A stretch of DNA of 64,000 nucleotides from a virus: IMG/VR virus record IMGVR_UViG_3300035670_000191, positions 1 to 64,000 of that record; one strand, 5' to 3'. The position numbers and the translations under genes are program-made. The notes under the pieces are model-generated. The model was not told the DNA's origin, did no database searches, and was given only the letters and a program-made list of their open reading frames with translations. Below are positions 20,230-29,601 of the stretch, piece by piece; the first letter of the stretch is position 1, and every line of letters begins with the position of its first letter.

Positions 20230-20262
20230 GTGTTTAGCCTTTGCTTTGGTGTTGGAGTTTGT

Positions 20263-21066
20263 ATGCGTTATCGGTTGTATCAAGGGGATTGCGCCAAAGT
20301 TATGGCTTCATTCCCGCCGGGGTCTGTTGACCTTGTTGTTACAAGTCCACCGTATGATGGGCTTAGGGCATACGAAGGGTATACGTTTGACTTCCCAAAG
20401 ATTGCTGAAGAACTTTGGAGAGTTGTTACTGAAGGTGGTATTGTTGTTTGGGTTATTGGAGATGCTACTGTTAATGGAAGTGAGACAGGAACGTCTTTTA
20501 GACAAGTGTTAAAGTTTATGGATGTTGGATTCCGGCTGCATGATACTATGATATGGAATAAGGGGAGTTTTACGGCTGTTGGTGCTTTGAAAACACGCTA
20601 TGGGCCTGTATTCGAGTATATGTTTGTACTGGCAAAGGGTAAGCCTAGAGTGTTTAATCCGATAAAGGATAGGAGGAATAAGCAAGCGGGAAAAACATCC
20701 AACGGACGGCTTCGACTCCCCGACGGTTCCATGAGGCTAAGAAGTAACCCAGACTATGTTATACCGGAATATGGGCAAAGATTTAACGTCTGGGATATAC
20801 ATCCGGTGAAGACCAACCGAGCCGACGACCATCCTGCCCCTTTTCCAGAAGCACTTGCAAATGACCATATTGTTTCTTGGTCGAATCCGGGAGACATAAT
20901 ACTTGACCCGTTCGCCGGAAGCGGAACAACATTGTTAGCGGCTTTGACAAACGGGCGGCAAGCCATTGGAATTGAAACTTCGGAAAAGTATTGTGGTATG
21001 ATACGTGAGAGGCTGGCAAGACGTGGATTTCTTCCGGGCGGAAGTATTGTTGCTGTTGAAGGCTAA
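20263..21066 (+). CDS. DNA methyltransferase (N4-cytosine/N6-adenine, beta class)
   Basis: I start at ATG 20263 (MRYRLYQGDCAKVM), which has TTGGAG upstream, instead of the GTG 33 bases earlier inside the terminator tail. The 267-residue product has motif IV TSPPYDG at residues 28-34 and motif I DPFAGSGTT near residue 215, the beta-class order. With SPPY, the N4-cytosine group is most likely, but N6-adenine is not excluded. It would modify phage DNA against host restriction. It forms a unit with the tiny membrane peptide and a second methyltransferase downstream. Confidence 0.87.
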   Translation: MRYRLYQGDCAKVMASFPPGSVDLVVTSPPYDGLRAYEGYTFDFPKIAEELWRVVTEGGIVVWVIGDATVNGSETGTSFRQVLKFMDVGFRLHDTMIWNKGSFTAVGALKTRYGPVFEYMFVLAKGKPRVFNPIKDRRNKQAGKTSNGRLRLPDGSMRLRSNPDYVIPEYGQRFNVWDIHPVKTNRADDHPAPFPEALANDHIVSWSNPGDIILDPFAGSGTTLLAALTNGRQAIGIETSEKYCGMIRERLARRGFLPGGSIVAVEG

Positions 21067-21112: not shown

Positions 21113-21193
21113 ATGGTGTTGTTAGATGTTTTTTGGATATGTGTTACTGCTTTGGTCACGTTCTCACTGCTCTCGGCGGTTGTAGATGATTAG
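21113..21193 (+). CDS. 26-residue hydrophobic micropeptide between methyltransferase genes
   Basis: ATG 21113 follows GTGAGGTGATGTT, a strong ribosome-binding site. The frame encodes 26 residues, mostly one membrane span (WICVTALVTFSLLSAVV), ending DD. Its last codons overlap the ATG of the next gene (ATGATTAG), so translation coupling is likely. The strong start signal and overlap support a real micropeptide. Function unknown; it may serve mainly to couple translation. Confidence 0.55.
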   Translation: MVLLDVFWICVTALVTFSLLSAVVDD

Positions 21194-21947
21194 GGAGTCA
21201 AGCCACGGTAGACTTATACTTGGTAACTGTCTTGACGTGCTACCCACACTCCGTGATACGTCCGCCGGGATGGTTTTGTGTGATATGCCGTATGGGACGA
21301 CAGCTTGTAAGTGGGATGTTGTTATTCCTCTTGCGCCAATGTGGCGGGAAGTTATGAGGGTTGTGAAGCCAGGCGGTGCAATCGTGCTGACAGCCACACA
21401 ACCTTTTTCAAGTGTACTTGTTATGAGTCAGCCGGACTTGTTTAAGTATGCTTGGTATTGGTGTAAGAATTTTAAGACCGGACATTTGAATGCTAAGAAG
21501 CAGCCAATGAGGAGCGTGGAAGATATACTTGTGTTTTGCGATGGGCAGACAGTGTATAATCCGCAAGGGGTTGTGCCGCATGGTAAGGTGAAAGACCGGG
21601 GAGTCGGGGCCACGACAAACCGGCCTTGTGGTAGTGTGTCTTTGCAAACCCACACCGGCTATCCACACCAGCAGTTGTTCTTTGACCGTGACTTACCCTC
21701 TGTTCATCCTACGCAAAAGCCTGTTGCACTCTTTGAGTATCTTGTAAGGACTTACACCAATCCCGGTGATACAGTAGTTGACTTTTGTTCTGGGAGCGGA
21801 ACTACTGCTTTGGCGTGCATTGCTTCTGGGCGGAACTATGTTTGTGTTGAGAAAGACCCAGGGTTTTATGAAGTAGGGGTTACGCGGGTGGGTGAGGCTG
21901 AAGCCATGCAAGCCCTGTGCCAACCGAGCGAATCTCACGCGCCGTGA
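21186..21947 (+). CDS. DNA adenine methyltransferase (Dam/M.EcoP15-type beta class)
   Basis: The 253-residue product has motif IV CDMPYGT at residues 32-38 and motif I VDFCSGSGTTALACIA near residue 197, followed by VCVEKDP. DMPY is the signature of N6-adenine methyltransferases, and the motif order is again beta class. The region HPTQKPVALFEYLVR is typical of such enzymes. The differing catalytic motifs of this and the preceding enzyme suggest two distinct target specificities. No matching restriction endonuclease is present. After its stop begins the 2.2-kb gene-free region. Confidence 0.87.
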   Translation: MIRESSHGRLILGNCLDVLPTLRDTSAGMVLCDMPYGTTACKWDVVIPLAPMWREVMRVVKPGGAIVLTATQPFSSVLVMSQPDLFKYAWYWCKNFKTGHLNAKKQPMRSVEDILVFCDGQTVYNPQGVVPHGKVKDRGVGATTNRPCGSVSLQTHTGYPHQQLFFDRDLPSVHPTQKPVALFEYLVRTYTNPGDTVVDFCSGSGTTALACIASGRNYVCVEKDPGFYEVGVTRVGEAEAMQALCQPSESHAP

Positions 21948-22327
21948 AAATTTGACAAGTGTGGTTGGGTGTGGTAGGAACGGGTTGACCGCTCTGCTTA
22001 CCACACTTTTGGCTGTTTGTCAAGAGCCTGTGCCGCCATGCACACTTCCGTCGGAATGTCAAGCCGGAAGCTGGCTGTTGACAAAGGGCTTTTGGTGTGG
22101 TAGGGCAGGCCAAGCACTTGACACACACCCCAACATGTGGTAAACCCCCCCCCCCCACCTGGCCCCCCCCCACAAAATCCATGCCACCCCTCCCTCCCTC
22201 CCCCCGGCACGGCCCTTGCACCGTCAAAATCCATGCCACCACGCCCGACCCGACCTGGCACGAACCTTGCAAGTTACCCCGCCACCGATCCGCCACCATA
22301 GTAAAGTTCTCGATCAACCTCGTTCTA

Positions 22328-22407
22328 ACTCCCAAAAAAGTCCAAAAAAGCACCAACTACCCCGGGGGCCGCCCACAGCCCCTATCACAAAGCGTGATAA
22401 CCAGCCC
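22328..22407. repeat. bent-DNA plus palindrome element, left copy
   Basis: Two A6 tracts exactly 10 bases apart (22334 and 22344) are followed by CCCACAGCC and the palindrome TATCAC-AAAGC-GTGATA (22383-22399). A diverged copy with the same order (A6, A6, CCCACAGCC, ATCAC-N5-GTGAT) is at 24973-25046 on the far side of rep. Helically phased A-tracts predict intrinsic bending. A binding site for a partition or copy-control protein is possible. Confidence 0.6.
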
Positions 22408-22487
22408 TGAAATTCCCCAGAAAATTCCGGGATAAAAACCCTGTAAACCGCATGGTTTTTCCGTGTGGGCAACAAGCGACGCCCAGT

Positions 22488-22546
22488 GTTGCGCCCACGC
22501 AACAATTACAACGGACTGTGATAGGGGGTTGTTGCGCGGACGCAAC
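22488..22546. promoter_or_regulatory. pair of palindromic sites GTTGCG-N4-CGCAAC
   Basis: GTTGCG-CCCA-CGCAAC (22488-22503) and GTTGCG-CGGA-CGCAAC (22531-22546) share identical arms and are 43 bases apart, about four helical turns, so bound dimers would lie on the same face of the DNA. No gene start is nearby, which suggests a maintenance or origin function and not a promoter operator. Confidence 0.55.
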
Positions 22547-23917
22547 AGCCAAGCCTTCGGCTCCGGTCTCCGACTTTGCATGGCCTGCTGCCCAAAGGTT
22601 TGCCCAAGTCCGGGTCTGCCTCGCCAAAGGTTTGCCAAAGTTTTGGTGGAAGGTTTGTCCGAGTCTGCGGCTCCCGGCTCCGGGTGTCAAGTTTCCGACA
22701 GGCCCGACAAGCAGGGCCATGGGACTGGTCAGTCCAGATCGCCCCACCCAAACATAAACTTGGACTAACTTCCAGGGCTTGGGAGACAAGAACTTAAGGC
22801 AAGCCCTGCAAGCCCTGCAAGCCCCAAGTTGAACTTAGTTGTTGCGGGCCAAGGGCCATGCCCATTCAACAAGTTGAAGTTGGGCCTGTGGCCAAGGGCC
22901 ATACCCAGTGTCAATTTTCCGACACTTGGACAAGTGGGGTTTGCCCGGCTGCCCGGCTGCCCGTGTTGCGTGTTTGCAACAAGTGGGCCGGGGCCGAGGG
23001 CTTTCCAAGTGGAACTTATTGTTGCCACAGATGTACCTGCCCACAAGTGGACTTCCAGTTTCACTTGTGGGGCTTGCCAAGTTGGCAACAAATTGACCCC
23101 AAGTTGAACTTCCATGAACTTCCATGAACTTCCAGTTGTTTGCCACAAGTGAAAAGTTAGCCAAGCCTGTTTGCAACAAGGGTGGGGGGGACTTCAATAA
23201 GTTGAACCCGGTTGAACCCGGTTGAACCCGGTTGAACGGCCAAGCCTGTTGGCTTCAATAAGTTTGGTTCCCGCCGGGCAAGCCCTGCCTGCAACAAGTT
23301 GAGTCAATGTTGGCTGTGCCATGCAACAAGTTTGGCTCCCGCCAGTGGAACAATGTTCATGCAACAAGTTAACCCGGTTAACCCTGTTAAACAATGTTTG
23401 CCAGTGGAATCCACTGGATTCAACAAGTTGAACACTGTTCATGGCTTCTTTCAGAAGTTGGGGGGGGGGGGCAATGGGCAGACTTTCAGAAGTGAAACTT
23501 ATGGGCCAAGGGCAAGGGCAAGCCTGGCCAATCCCGACCAAGCCTGCAACAAGTTGACCTTGTTGACCCCGGTTGACCCCGGTTGACCCGCCCCGTTCAG
23601 CCCTTGTTCAGGTTCATGCGACAGGTTGACAGGGTGACCTTGTGGCCATGCCCCGGTTGAACCCCGGTTGCCGACAAGCCCACAAGTGTCAGTTTCCCGA
23701 CAGATGGGCGGGGCAAGCCCGCTGGCTGAACAGACTGACTGTTGACAGGCCAAGCCAGGGGCAAGCCCAAAGGGATGGCAGGTGTCAAGTGGGCACAGGG
23801 CCAAGCACCGAGGCCAAGCCCTCACGCCCTCACGCTCACACAAGTCGCAGCCCACAGCCCACAGCCCGGATTGGCCGAAGGCCTGGCCACGGCCACTTTT
23901 TTGCGTGCGGGTGCATG

Positions 23918-23991: not shown

Positions 23992-24057
23992 ATAGGTGGG
24001 ATAAAACAACCAGATAGGGGGGAAAATCCAACCACATAGGTGGGAAAAAACAACCAC
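23992..24057 (+). repeat. three 22-bp iterons, probable replication origin
   Basis: Three direct repeats of exactly 22 bases lie head to tail at 23992-24013, 24014-24035 and 24036-24057, consensus ATAGGTGGGAAAAAACAACC plus two bases. A degenerate fourth (AAAAGGGTGAA) follows at 24058. Tandem 22-bp iterons immediately upstream of the initiator gene are the standard arrangement of Rep_3/RepE/Pi-type theta plasmids; the initiator binds them to open the origin and to control copy number. Confidence 0.85.
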
Positions 24058-24124
24058 AAAAGGGTGAATGGCCCTTGCCCTGCTCACCCCTATCGGCTAG
24101 ACTGGGGCTTTTTGAGGCAGAGCC

Positions 24125-24961
24125 GTGATCGTGAAAAACGTCCCAAGCACCGACAGCAGAATGGTGTGCCCCTTGTTGGCGGGCAACACCCATGCAAGTT
24201 TGAGCAACATTTTGTTGAACGGAAGTTTCCCTTTTTCAAACACTGAGGCTCTTGCCATTCTTTTGTCACTTGGAGGGGTTAATTCAACTCCGACTGACAA
24301 CCCTGAAACAGATGCTTACAGGAAGTCAAGAGTTTATGCGTTCAGCACAAAAGACTATGCGGCTTTGAAAAACTTGGACGCAAGACAGACTTACAGGACT
24401 TTTCTGGCAGCAGCAGAGTCCATTTTCAAGAAACACTTTGTTGTTTTTCCGTCAAAGACAAATAGAGACAAAGTCTTGTGCCGTTGGGTTAGCGAAGTTC
24501 ATGCTTATGCAGATGCAGACAGGATTGGGTTTGTTTACAGTCCGACGGTTTACGACTTTATCTTTAACTTGACAGGGGATTTTACGCGGCTAAACACACT
24601 TGTGTCTTTGACCATTGAGGGAAAACACCCAAGAAGATTGTTTATGCTGCTGGAACAACAGCGGTTCAGGGGTCTTGTGGGGCAGGCAGGGTGGGGAATT
24701 GAGGAACTTTATGAGTGCTTTGGGGCAACGGAGGCGGCCAGGGAAGCGAAGGTGTTTTTCAAGGACATTTTCAATCCGTCAGTTGCGGCTTTGAAGGAAG
24801 TTGGGTATCTGGATGAGTGCGAAGTTCGGAAGGTTAAGGCTGGTCGGAACATTTCGGGAGTTGAGTTGGACTTTGTTTTGGCGTCGCAGGAGAAGTTTGC
24901 CGAAGTTTACAGGGCAGACTTGGAGCATCTTGCGAAACTGAAGGCAAGGTGGGGAAGCTAA
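24125..24961 (+). CDS. rep: Rep_3-family plasmid replication initiator
   Basis: The 278-residue product follows the two-winged-helix layout of Rep_3 (Initiator Rep) proteins. Features: FVYSPTVYDFIFNLTGDFTRLNTL at the end of the first domain (the f.pev...l..l...f...l signature), LFMLLEQQRFRG, then GIEELYECFGATEA, FKDIFNPSVAALKEVGYLDE (the family's xFKxxVLxPAIxEIN-type helix) and GRNISGVELDFVL. It starts at GTG 24125 with GAGG at good spacing. The iterons end 67 bases upstream, so Rep probably autoregulates its own promoter. Such an initiator implies circular, plasmid-like replication with the host polymerase, alongside the phage's own polymerase. Confidence 0.85.
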   Translation: MIVKNVPSTDSRMVCPLLAGNTHASLSNILLNGSFPFSNTEALAILLSLGGVNSTPTDNPETDAYRKSRVYAFSTKDYAALKNLDARQTYRTFLAAAESIFKKHFVVFPSKTNRDKVLCRWVSEVHAYADADRIGFVYSPTVYDFIFNLTGDFTRLNTLVSLTIEGKHPRRLFMLLEQQRFRGLVGQAGWGIEELYECFGATEAAREAKVFFKDIFNPSVAALKEVGYLDECEVRKVKAGRNISGVELDFVLASQEKFAEVYRADLEHLAKLKARWGS

Positions 24962-26861: not shown

Positions 26862-27260
26862 ATGAGTAAGTTAAAACAAATTGGTAGGGTAAAAGGTAAG
26901 GATTCCGCTAGCGATTCCATTGTATACTTGGAAAAACACGCTAAGAGCAATGGGAAACTGTATTACGGTTTAGTTGTTGCAGAGACACCTGACGGAGTGA
27001 TTAAGCCATATTTAATGGACGACATTATCGCGTCATTTGACCTAGATGCACCGCTTATTGGAATGGAGGTTACTGTAGATAACCCACTTGAGTTTATTCA
27101 AAGTTGGCGAGACGTTTATAACTTAGAAAGCGTTATAAAGATGTACCGGAGAAACAACCCAAGCTCCTCTACGTTGCCGTTGTTACAAGCCGACCTGCTA
27201 GAGGCTTTAGATAAAATATGGTCTGAATTGACTAATTTGAAATACCGGAGAAGAATATGA
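26862..27260 (+). CDS. hypothetical protein coupled to the variable DUF1566 gene (132 aa)
   Basis: ATG 26862 has GGCAGAAGC upstream. The product begins with a basic stretch (SKLKQIGRVKGK), has a beta-rich middle and ends in helices and YRRR. No family is recognised. Its stop overlaps the start of the variable lectin-fold gene (ATGA), so the two are translated together; a chaperone or partner of that protein is a reasonable but untested idea. Confidence 0.6.
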   Translation: MSKLKQIGRVKGKDSASDSIVYLEKHAKSNGKLYYGLVVAETPDGVIKPYLMDDIIASFDLDAPLIGMEVTVDNPLEFIQSWRDVYNLESVIKMYRRNNPSSSTLPLLQADLLEALDKIWSELTNLKYRRRI

Positions 27261-27625
27261 GATACGTTGAAAAAGCAGAATCAGAAATCCTTGATACCAA
27301 AACCAATTTGGTTTGGCAAAGGTCATACGAGACCATGACATTTGATGAGGCTCACGCTTATGCAAAGCGTGTTTCAGATGTTACAGGGCAACAATGGAGG
27401 GTGCCGACACTGGATGAATTGACGAGTCTGATTGACAGATCAACAAGAAACCCCGCGTCGGCATTTCCTGGTATGCCTCCGGTATGGTTTTGGTCGTCGT
27501 CGCCGTACGTCGGCTATACCAGTTGCGTCTGGGGTGTCAATTTCGGCGATGGCAGTGTCTACGGCAGCGGCAGCCGTGGCTACGGCTACGGCGCGGTTCG
27601 GTTGGTTCGTGATGCAATACCCTAA
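27257..27625 (+). CDS. DUF1566 lectin-fold protein with DGR-type variable C-terminus
   Basis: The 122-residue product aligns with its two upstream paralogues (MRYVEKAESEILDTKTNLVWQ, WRVPTLDELTSLIDRS, FWSSSPY) but its C-terminal surface differs: residues 84-112 are dominated by Gly, Tyr and Ser, with nearly every codon of the form NNC or NNT. This is the fingerprint of adenine-directed mutagenesis of AAC/AAT template codons by a diversity-generating retroelement, followed by the conserved AVRLVR end. Such proteins bind variable ligands, typically host receptors. Local GC content in the variable part is much higher than in the rest of the cassette. It is the last gene of the rightward cassette, ending 84 bases before a bidirectional terminator. 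Confidence 0.85.
   Translation: MRYVEKAESEILDTKTNLVWQRSYETMTFDEAHAYAKRVSDVTGQQWRVPTLDELTSLIDRSTRNPASAFPGMPPVWFWSSSPYVGYTSCVWGVNFGDGSVYGSGSRGYGYGAVRLVRDAIP
27488..27610 (+). other. DGR variable region VR1
   Basis: From the TTTTGGTCGTCGTCGCCG lead-in to the GCGGTTCGGTTGGTTCGT end, the codons at residues 84-112 read mostly NNC/NNT (TAC, GTC, GGC, TAT, ACC, AGT, TGC and so on). Related DUF1566 targets have Asn codons at many of these sites in the template. The G/C-rich end is where an IMH element would be expected. No template repeat matching it was found in this window. Confidence 0.78.
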
Positions 27626-27708
27626 AGCCCCACATACCCCGCAATAAGTATTCAAGCCCTGGGTGAGATACCCACGGGAATACCCACGGGAATACCTTTC
27701 TGACAAAG

Positions 27709-27754
27709 TTAAGGCCAGCCAATAATACCATGTAAGTATTACTGCTGGCCTTAA
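27709..27754. terminator. bidirectional terminator between convergent genes
   Basis: TTAAGGCCAGC (27709-27719) is complementary to GCTGGCCTTAA (27744-27754), with an inner imperfect AATAATAC/GTATTACT extension. T and A residues flank it on both sides, so it can stop transcripts from either direction. Just upstream is a tandem duplication of TACCCACGGGAA (about 27669-27693). Confidence 0.8.
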
Positions 27755-27761
27755 TCAATCC

Positions 27762-28172
27762 TCACAGGCCAAATTTAGCCTTCTCCGCCCTTCCCCAAGC
27801 CCGGATACCCTCCACATAGGCATTGTAGATATTAAACTCATCCGAAGGCGCAGTCCGAATAAGTTTAATCTCATCATACAAAGCGTATCGTTCTGCAATC
27901 TTTTCCCTAACTCGTGCATTCACCAGAGCAACATGCGGGCTACTAGCCGAAAGTGCTTCCTTAAGTTCCGGAGTCAGCGTCACAGTTTCAATAGTAATCT
28001 GGCTTGGTTGTTCGGGCAATACAAGATTATCAGGTATACTTACATACATATATTCGTCAAGTTTTCCAAGAAATGTGGGGAAAGGCCCGTCCATTTCAGT
28101 CGAAGGCGTGTATAGTAAGTTGTAGGTAGTATACTCATCCGATACCGGTATGTATTTAACTATAGAAGGCAT
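27762..28172 (-). CDS. putative tail fibre assembly protein (136 aa)
   Basis: The last gene of the leftward late operon, 58 bases downstream of the variable fibre-tip gene. The product has a beta-rich N-terminus and a helical, charged C-terminal half ending GIRAWGRAEKAKFGL. Position directly after a receptor-binding fibre gene is the usual place for a fibre assembly chaperone; the sequence itself gives no diagnostic motif. The start at 28172 has GAGGACAACC upstream. Confidence 0.5.
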   Translation of the reverse strand: MPSIVKYIPVSDEYTTYNLLYTPSTEMDGPFPTFLGKLDEYMYVSIPDNLVLPEQPSQITIETVTLTPELKEALSASSPHVALVNARVREKIAERYALYDEIKLIRTAPSDEFNIYNAYVEGIRAWGRAEKAKFGL

Positions 28173-28230
28173 TGGTTGTCCTCATTGTGTTAGATTGTGG
28201 TAGTTTTGGGCTATCGCTCCAACACTATTT

Positions 28231-29601
28231 TTACAGGTAAAGGCCGGAGCGGCCGCCCACAGTGTCGTTCGAGTACGACCCTACGTGGCCGAGATAAAAC
28301 GCCCAAGCCCCGGCACCCGGCCCATGGCCCCAGTAGCCGCCGGAGATCGGGCACAGGCCGATCGGTTTGTAATCCCCTATCCCGTCTAATCCGAAATGAT
28401 TAGACCCGGCCCCAGATGCCCCGTCGACCTGCGGTATGCCCATTCCGGTCAATCGCCAGTTTGGGGTGGTGCGGTCGCTGCTGGCAGCAAATACGCCGTT
28501 GGCGGCATTTCCAAACCGCAGGGACTGGTTTGTTCCGGTCAATGCTCCAGTATCCGTTCCGTATGTGTGGCTGTAAAATACGTCGCTGTTGTACGTAAAT
28601 GCCGTGTCGGCAGTAATATCCCGACAGGCAACCGCTTCCTTTAGTAAATACAGCAGTGTGCCGTCTGACGTAATCCCCGGGGTTACTTCCCACATATTTC
28701 CGTTTAAGTCAGCTACCCCACAATTCTGACCGTTATGCGTAGTTTTGGCAAACGGCGTTCCACTGCCAGTTTTGCCGCAGTTGGGGTATCCGTCAGATGT
28801 ATATTGCACGTTAGTATCGTCAATATCCAGCAGGGCGTTATTATTGTTCCCCTTGGGAAAGTTACTGAAACCGCTCGCGTTATACCACGCACACGTTGTG
28901 TTACTCGTCACCGCCTGTGCGTGTGCCTGTGCTAGCAATGCCAGTGCCGCATATTGATGCCTGAATACAGGGAAAAACTGGGCGCCGTAATACCCGCCCC
29001 GAGTTTTACTCGCAGCAAATGCTCCGTCGTATCGGTTCTGCGCGGAGGTCATCCCGGTCAGGTTGCCCCAGGGGTTATGATCTGCGTGACTTGACAATGG
29101 ATTTCCATTTTTAATTGAACTAGCCCGGCCTGCATTATTGGCCCACTGGTATTTATCGACAAAAAATCCGGGTTTTGACACTCCGCCGTCAATAAACCCC
29201 CGGTGCAAAGCATATCCTGCCGCATTTGCATCTGTTTCCGAAGCAAACGTAAAATCGCCAGCAATATCTATGGCATTAGCCCCATATACCGAGTATCTTG
29301 GACTACCAGAATTGCCAATTCTATAATAGAATCGGGGTATCCAAGCCATGATACTCCCGTCTGTATACATATAATTTCCCCAGTTATCGTGTACTGGGTC
29401 ATACGTCCCTACCATCGTCGCAAAGTCTGTCGGAACATCCAGTGGATATGGTGCAATACCAAACCCATAACTCCCGGCAATACCTATGTCACTTGCACCG
29501 TGCATATACTGGGGGTGTATCGTGTCCCCCCGTTGTAACTCGCTTATTTGCCAAGTCCCGTCTGGTTTTTGAAAAAACTTTAATGGTACTATGTTAGTCA
29601 T
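28231..29601 (-). CDS. tail fibre tip protein with FGE-type lectin fold and DGR variable C-terminus
   Basis: The 456-residue product has a short N-terminal region (MTNIVPLKFF) and then a domain of the formylglycine-generating-enzyme/C-type-lectin type common in phage DGR targets: MAWIPRFYYR, FFVDKYQWAN, GVADLNGNMWEVTPG and a final GGYWGHGPGAGAWAFYLGHV...GRSGLYL. The terminal 38 residues match the canonical DGR scaffold GGxWxxGxxAGxWxxxLxxxxSxSxxxVGxRSxL, with variable positions encoded by codons that are one or two substitutions from AAC/AAT. It is the most distal leftward fibre gene and the likely receptor-binding protein. It is followed by a candidate assembly protein. Confidence 0.87.
   Translation of the reverse strand: MTNIVPLKFFQKPDGTWQISELQRGDTIHPQYMHGASDIGIAGSYGFGIAPYPLDVPTDFATMVGTYDPVHDNWGNYMYTDGSIMAWIPRFYYRIGNSGSPRYSVYGANAIDIAGDFTFASETDANAAGYALHRGFIDGGVSKPGFFVDKYQWANNAGRASSIKNGNPLSSHADHNPWGNLTGMTSAQNRYDGAFAASKTRGGYYGAQFFPVFRHQYAALALLAQAHAQAVTSNTTCAWYNASGFSNFPKGNNNNALLDIDDTNVQYTSDGYPNCGKTGSGTPFAKTTHNGQNCGVADLNGNMWEVTPGITSDGTLLYLLKEAVACRDITADTAFTYNSDVFYSHTYGTDTGALTGTNQSLRFGNAANGVFAASSDRTTPNWRLTGMGIPQVDGASGAGSNHFGLDGIGDYKPIGLCPISGGYWGHGPGAGAWAFYLGHVGSYSNDTVGGRSGLYL
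28234..28350 (-). other. DGR variable region VR2
   Basis: On the minus strand the last 38 codons of the fibre-tip gene alternate conserved scaffold codons (TGG, GCT TGG, CTC, TCG, GTG, CGC TCC) with NNC/NNT or other codons explained by changes at template adenines (TAC, GGC, CAT, GGT, TAT, CAC, GAC, ACT). The region is GC-rich compared with the rest of the gene. No matching template repeat was found in the window. Confidence 0.8.

Follow-up and report, generated by a model that had tools for sequence, protein, structure and literature searches.

DGR cassettes of the BPP-1-type phages comprise Mtd, Avd, a template (TR) and a reverse transcriptase (RT), and the phage loci related to the one described here share these parts, the order target–Avd–TR–RT, a C-type lectin target and a hairpin after the variable region (VR). 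The locus itself departs from this plan, as its target has no Avd, TR or RT beside it and none of the three turned up elsewhere. Isolates of Treponema denticola without a core DGR retain A-patterned VR targets with neither RT nor TR, which was explained by core losses (PMC4891356); those leftovers are bacterial and belong to several paralogues, whereas the present ones occur in phages whose relatives carry deletion intermediates. The partial DGRs of Nanoarchaeota that lack an RT consist of the target, VR and cis elements only, for which the authors offered a fossil or remote diversification (PMC4372165). These two origins were indistinguishable there, while the missing block could be placed by comparison here. 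TaqVP of Thermus aquaticus (5VF4), the best structural and profile match of our fibre protein, comes from a different organism and shares approximately 17% identity with it in the structural alignment. Known DUF1566 targets of DGRs (PMC4159848, PMC6642488) have the same domain type as the second target described below, with RT and TR known for them and none found for ours, and one published DGR combines two TRs with several DUF1566 targets (PMC6642488). Remote DGR targets have been described in cyanobacteria (PMC7517822), and such targets are overlooked by RT-based surveys according to one large survey (PMC8144416). The literature searched, mostly without subscription papers, contained no phage series of deletion intermediates.

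The window analysed here is the 64,000-nucleotide stretch formed by bases 1–64000 of a 65,539-bp IMG/VR virus record, which is itself incomplete. A contig (G051) that is 99.996% identical to the record over 27,783 bp adds 2,530 bp at its right end, and a sister phage (G053) reaches further than the record; both are incomplete as well. The first 143 bases consist of 8.9 copies of a 16-bp tandem repeat, CGCACGCACGCGCACC, which is likely to be the point where assembly stopped. No relatives of P0001 or of the leftmost gene were confirmed in IMG/VR. A Rep3-type plasmid initiator is located at 24125–24961 (PF01051, E = 5e-13), and three iteron-like direct repeats of 22 bp lie in front of it (23992–24058); together with phage genes elsewhere, these suggest a phage-plasmid. 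The stretch 22140–23760 is rich in short, degenerate direct repeats, among them GTTGAACCCG, CAACAAGTT and GCAAGCCCT, and two adjacent N6/N4 DNA methylase genes lie at 20230–21066 and 21186–21947. The features relevant to the two variable regions are as follows.

26040 and 26430: the other two DUF1566 genes of the run
27257–27625, plus strand: third DUF1566/Lcl_C gene of the run, 122 aa, target carrying VR1 (Pfam PF07603, E = 1.5e-25)
27488 to about 27600, plus strand: VR1, probable remote DGR variable region (substitution pattern against G053)
27711–27752: inverted repeat AAGGCCAGC...GCTGGCCTT between the convergent genes, visible in the sequence
27762–28172, minus strand: small gene, 136 aa, located behind the RT in relatives (homologues at constant distance)
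28206–28222, minus strand: putative DGR target-site hairpin TTGGaGC-GATA-GCcCAA, 8 nt beyond the stop codon of the fibre gene (loop motif at the same place in many RT-positive relatives)
28231–29601, minus strand: tail-fibre-like DGR variable protein, 456 aa, predicted C-type lectin/FGE fold, target carrying VR2 (profile and AlphaFold2 model)
28242–28355, minus strand: VR2, probably orphaned variable region (gap-free alignment to the TRs of relatives)

Both open reading frames with hypervariable C-terminal codon patterns were present where an earlier note had placed them, and its reading of the two regions as DGR variable regions on two scaffold types was borne out. Its position for VR2 held as a region, with the bounds 28234–28350 corrected to about 28242–28355 by the TRs of relatives. 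The bidirectional terminator that it had described was not called by a terminator scan, which leaves only the inverted repeat at 27711–27752, largely conserved in G053.

A profile built from 35 homologues of the fibre matched TaqVP (E = 4e-8). The AlphaFold2 model of the fibre (mean pLDDT of 84) also matched TaqVP (E = 2e-15) and more weakly Mtd (E = 2e-3 to 5e-2; PMC6328139), as would be expected of a C-type lectin-type variable protein, and the fibre presumably plays a receptor-binding role. VR2 lies near the 3′ end of this gene and aligned ungapped with the TRs of nine relatives, where the mismatches fell mostly on template A at codon positions 1 and 2 (p = 1e-2 to 1e-5). Against the TR of L005, for example, 16 of 26 A and 6 of 50 non-A positions were mismatched (p = 1e-5). 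On the strength of these alignments to the templates of homologous cassettes, VR2 is regarded as a genuine DGR variable region. No relative of the fibre was found in G053, in which L114 (2825–8800) holds other genes (glycosyltransferase-like and fibre-like); the tail-tip region appears to be mosaic, as other genes occupy the place of the fibre there.

The surroundings of VR2 were compared with 67 related loci, 50 of which are whole records that were screened for RT. The RT was detected in 30 of these 50 (29 above the curated cut-off), normally directly behind the target, and many relatives carry a TR behind the target with A-biased TR/VR mismatches. Gene order was constant, target–Avd–TR–RT–small gene, and the small gene lay approximately 1,648 bp (1,628–1,665 bp) behind the target where the cassette is present and 36–372 bp behind it where the cassette is absent. 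In the window, about 60 bp separate the fibre from the small gene, and the place normally taken by the Avd–TR–RT block is empty. The small gene gave no match in family searches and is, from its position, probably a tail-fibre assembly chaperone. Pieces of the cassette persist in several relatives: L009 retains an RT fragment beginning at the YVDD motif, L066 and L007 retain C-terminal pieces of the RT and L003 and L029 shorter RT tails, Avd is truncated in L019, and the N-terminus of Avd is joined in frame to the C-terminus of the RT in L052. The window, L004, L020 and L043 show a clean junction with no cassette pieces. In four RT-less loci of one clade (L008, L016, L032 and L034), neither RT or cassette nor the small gene was seen in the downstream DNA examined. 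RT-less relatives of 29–56 kb contained no RT or TR elsewhere in their records. When a FastTree phylogeny was calculated for 64 fibre homologues with the VR left out, the RT-less loci were scattered, and parsimony gave 11 losses with the cassette ancestral; the fibre of the window sits on a long branch with a node support of 0.956.

The hairpin behind VR2 was examined against the rule of Guo 2011, in which a hairpin with a GRNA loop lies 4–34 bp after the VR and the published stems are 7–10 bp and GC-rich. The hairpin agrees with this rule, and its stem of six pairs plus a bulge is on the weak side relative to the published ones. GCGATAGC occurs only twice in the record, one occurrence being this hairpin, and was found in 18 of 36 RT-positive loci, with related GATA- or GRNA-like loop motifs at the same place in others. 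The hairpin is missing in the clean-deletion relatives L004, L020 and L043 and in the remnant-bearing L029, so the VR2 site would be either young or still usable.

VR1 was compared with a single sister sequence, that of G053, whose three DUF1566 genes occupy the position seen in the record, and no template of VR1 entered the comparison. In VR1, 11 of 36 sites at positions 1 and 2 of NNY codons differed, against none of the 36 other sites (p = 4e-4), and three of the codons carried double changes. Third positions differed at 0 of 24 sites in VR1 and at 39 of 74 in the N-terminal part of the gene (p = 5e-7). Variation in VR1 was thus confined, against G053 only, to possible template-A positions. 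The first ten codons of VR1 are common to the record and G053 and the later codons differ, which would fit rewriting biased to the 3′ end. The VR1 scaffold is identical in both phages, while the N-terminal parts of their third DUF1566 genes are strongly different. Since the 3′ flank of VR1 also differs from G053 (6 of 67 positions, approximately 9%), the rewriting would postdate their split. This pattern favours a non-adjacent DGR that rewrote VR1 once the two phages had diverged, and VR1 behaves as a remote target because neither phage has a cassette near it. A weak hairpin, TGGGT-GAGAT-ACCCA, is located downstream of the VR1 gene, with none found in G053. The VR-type codon pattern was absent from the other two DUF1566 genes. 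DUF1566 was found in none of the named phages, and the plasmids gave one partial match, in Persicobacter.

Within the 65,539-bp record, no match was obtained by a profile search with RVT_1 or with the PHROG models of RT and of Avd. An ungapped scan of both strands of the record and the 2,530 bp added by G051 gave no A-specific template for VR1 or VR2, and no RT was found in these additional 2,530 bp. Hence, the record contained none of the parts of a complete DGR, namely a DGR-type RT, a TR differing from the VR only at template A, and Avd, in agreement with the earlier claim that the window holds no RT or template; no RT, TR or Avd was found in the approximately 68 kb of phage formed by the record and its extension, or in G053. 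A wider template search was made by exact pattern only in IMG/VR and GTDB genomes and matched nothing: strict patterns gave zero in IMG/VR, and the relaxed VR1 pattern gave zero in both collections. The relaxed VR2 pattern also gave zero, a result of little weight as the pattern is over-strict at two codons. VR1 and VR2 did not match each other and no one template fits both, so two templates are implied, as had been proposed. A raised third-position G+C was considered as a sign of a foreign template for both VRs and rejected, for RT-positive relatives show the same rise (mean of 0.21; approximately 0.28 here); no foreign template is needed because such a rise is normal for DGR targets.

We consider it probable that VR1 and VR2 are authentic DGR variable regions that have become separated from their machinery, the cassette of VR2 having been deleted in place and VR1 being a remote target. 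VR2 would once have been part of a phage cassette of the usual kind, fibre–Avd–TR–RT–small gene. We infer that the Avd–TR–RT block was formerly present in this lineage and was then deleted, with the fibre ORF, the small gene and the hairpin at the target site staying behind. VR2 would now form a receptor-binding tip of fixed sequence, unless an RT and a matching TR act on it from elsewhere. The locus could alternatively have been acquired without its cassette, as target plus small gene, since it retains no trace of Avd, TR or RT. The long branch of the fibre and the four RT-less relatives with neither cassette nor small gene also weigh against the deletion reading. For VR1, on its unrelated DUF1566 scaffold, a DGR encoded elsewhere would have done the rewriting, chiefly of the 3′ part and from a non-adjacent TR. 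The earlier note had left three origins for the RT, namely that it lies elsewhere, is supplied by another element or was lost. Comparison decides between them only in part, with the adjacent block missing at VR2 and VR1 resembling a remote target. As the record is incomplete, the RT could lie in its missing part. A complete DGR there, with RT, Avd and two TRs and with both VRs as active remote targets, is possible but somewhat doubtful. The G051 extension and the longer G053 leave room for it, the VR2 hairpin is kept here and absent in L004, L020, L043 and L029, VR1 was apparently rewritten after divergence from G053, and multi-TR DGRs are known, including the one with DUF1566 targets (PMC6642488). 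It is countered by the phage DNA already covered, by the empty normal site of VR2 and by the RT-less relatives that lack RT and TR throughout.

It appears unlikely that the phage keeps two unrelated, still active DGR targets served in trans by an enzyme and templates that come from the host or from a remote segment of its own genome, with targets spreading independently of cassettes. More narrowly, it seems distinctly improbable that the RT and templates reside in the bacterial host, or in some other element, and act on the phage in trans. The identical VR1 scaffold beside strongly differing N-terminal parts would suit such a source, and the Rep3-type initiator and its iteron-like repeats may point to a plasmid-like existence inside the host. 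However, the two phages differ by only about 9% in the 3′ flank of VR1, so the identical scaffold is explained by a history that they share as phages, and the template patterns were empty (strict in IMG/VR; relaxed for VR1 in IMG/VR and GTDB genomes). A DGR-free alternative, in which the exposed loops of a receptor-binding protein are under ordinary positive selection, would accord with the lack of a template for either VR in the record, but it deserves very little credence, as the VR1 changes are restricted to NNY positions 1 and 2 with their double changes in single codons, RT-positive homologues carry A-biased TR/VR pairs, the hairpin is kept, and the fold is that of DGR variable proteins.

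Cassette loss beside the fibre, about 11 times in related viruses, would mean that a DGR target can persist after the machinery behind its sequence is gone, and targets such as VR1 and VR2 are missed by RT-based surveys. As the loci range from an intact cassette to a clean deletion, the decay of the cassette can be tested directly. If cassette shedding is recurrent in phages and the diversified tip is kept, diversification would be a phase that a deletion can end, and receptor-binding proteins shaped by DGRs would be more numerous than estimated.
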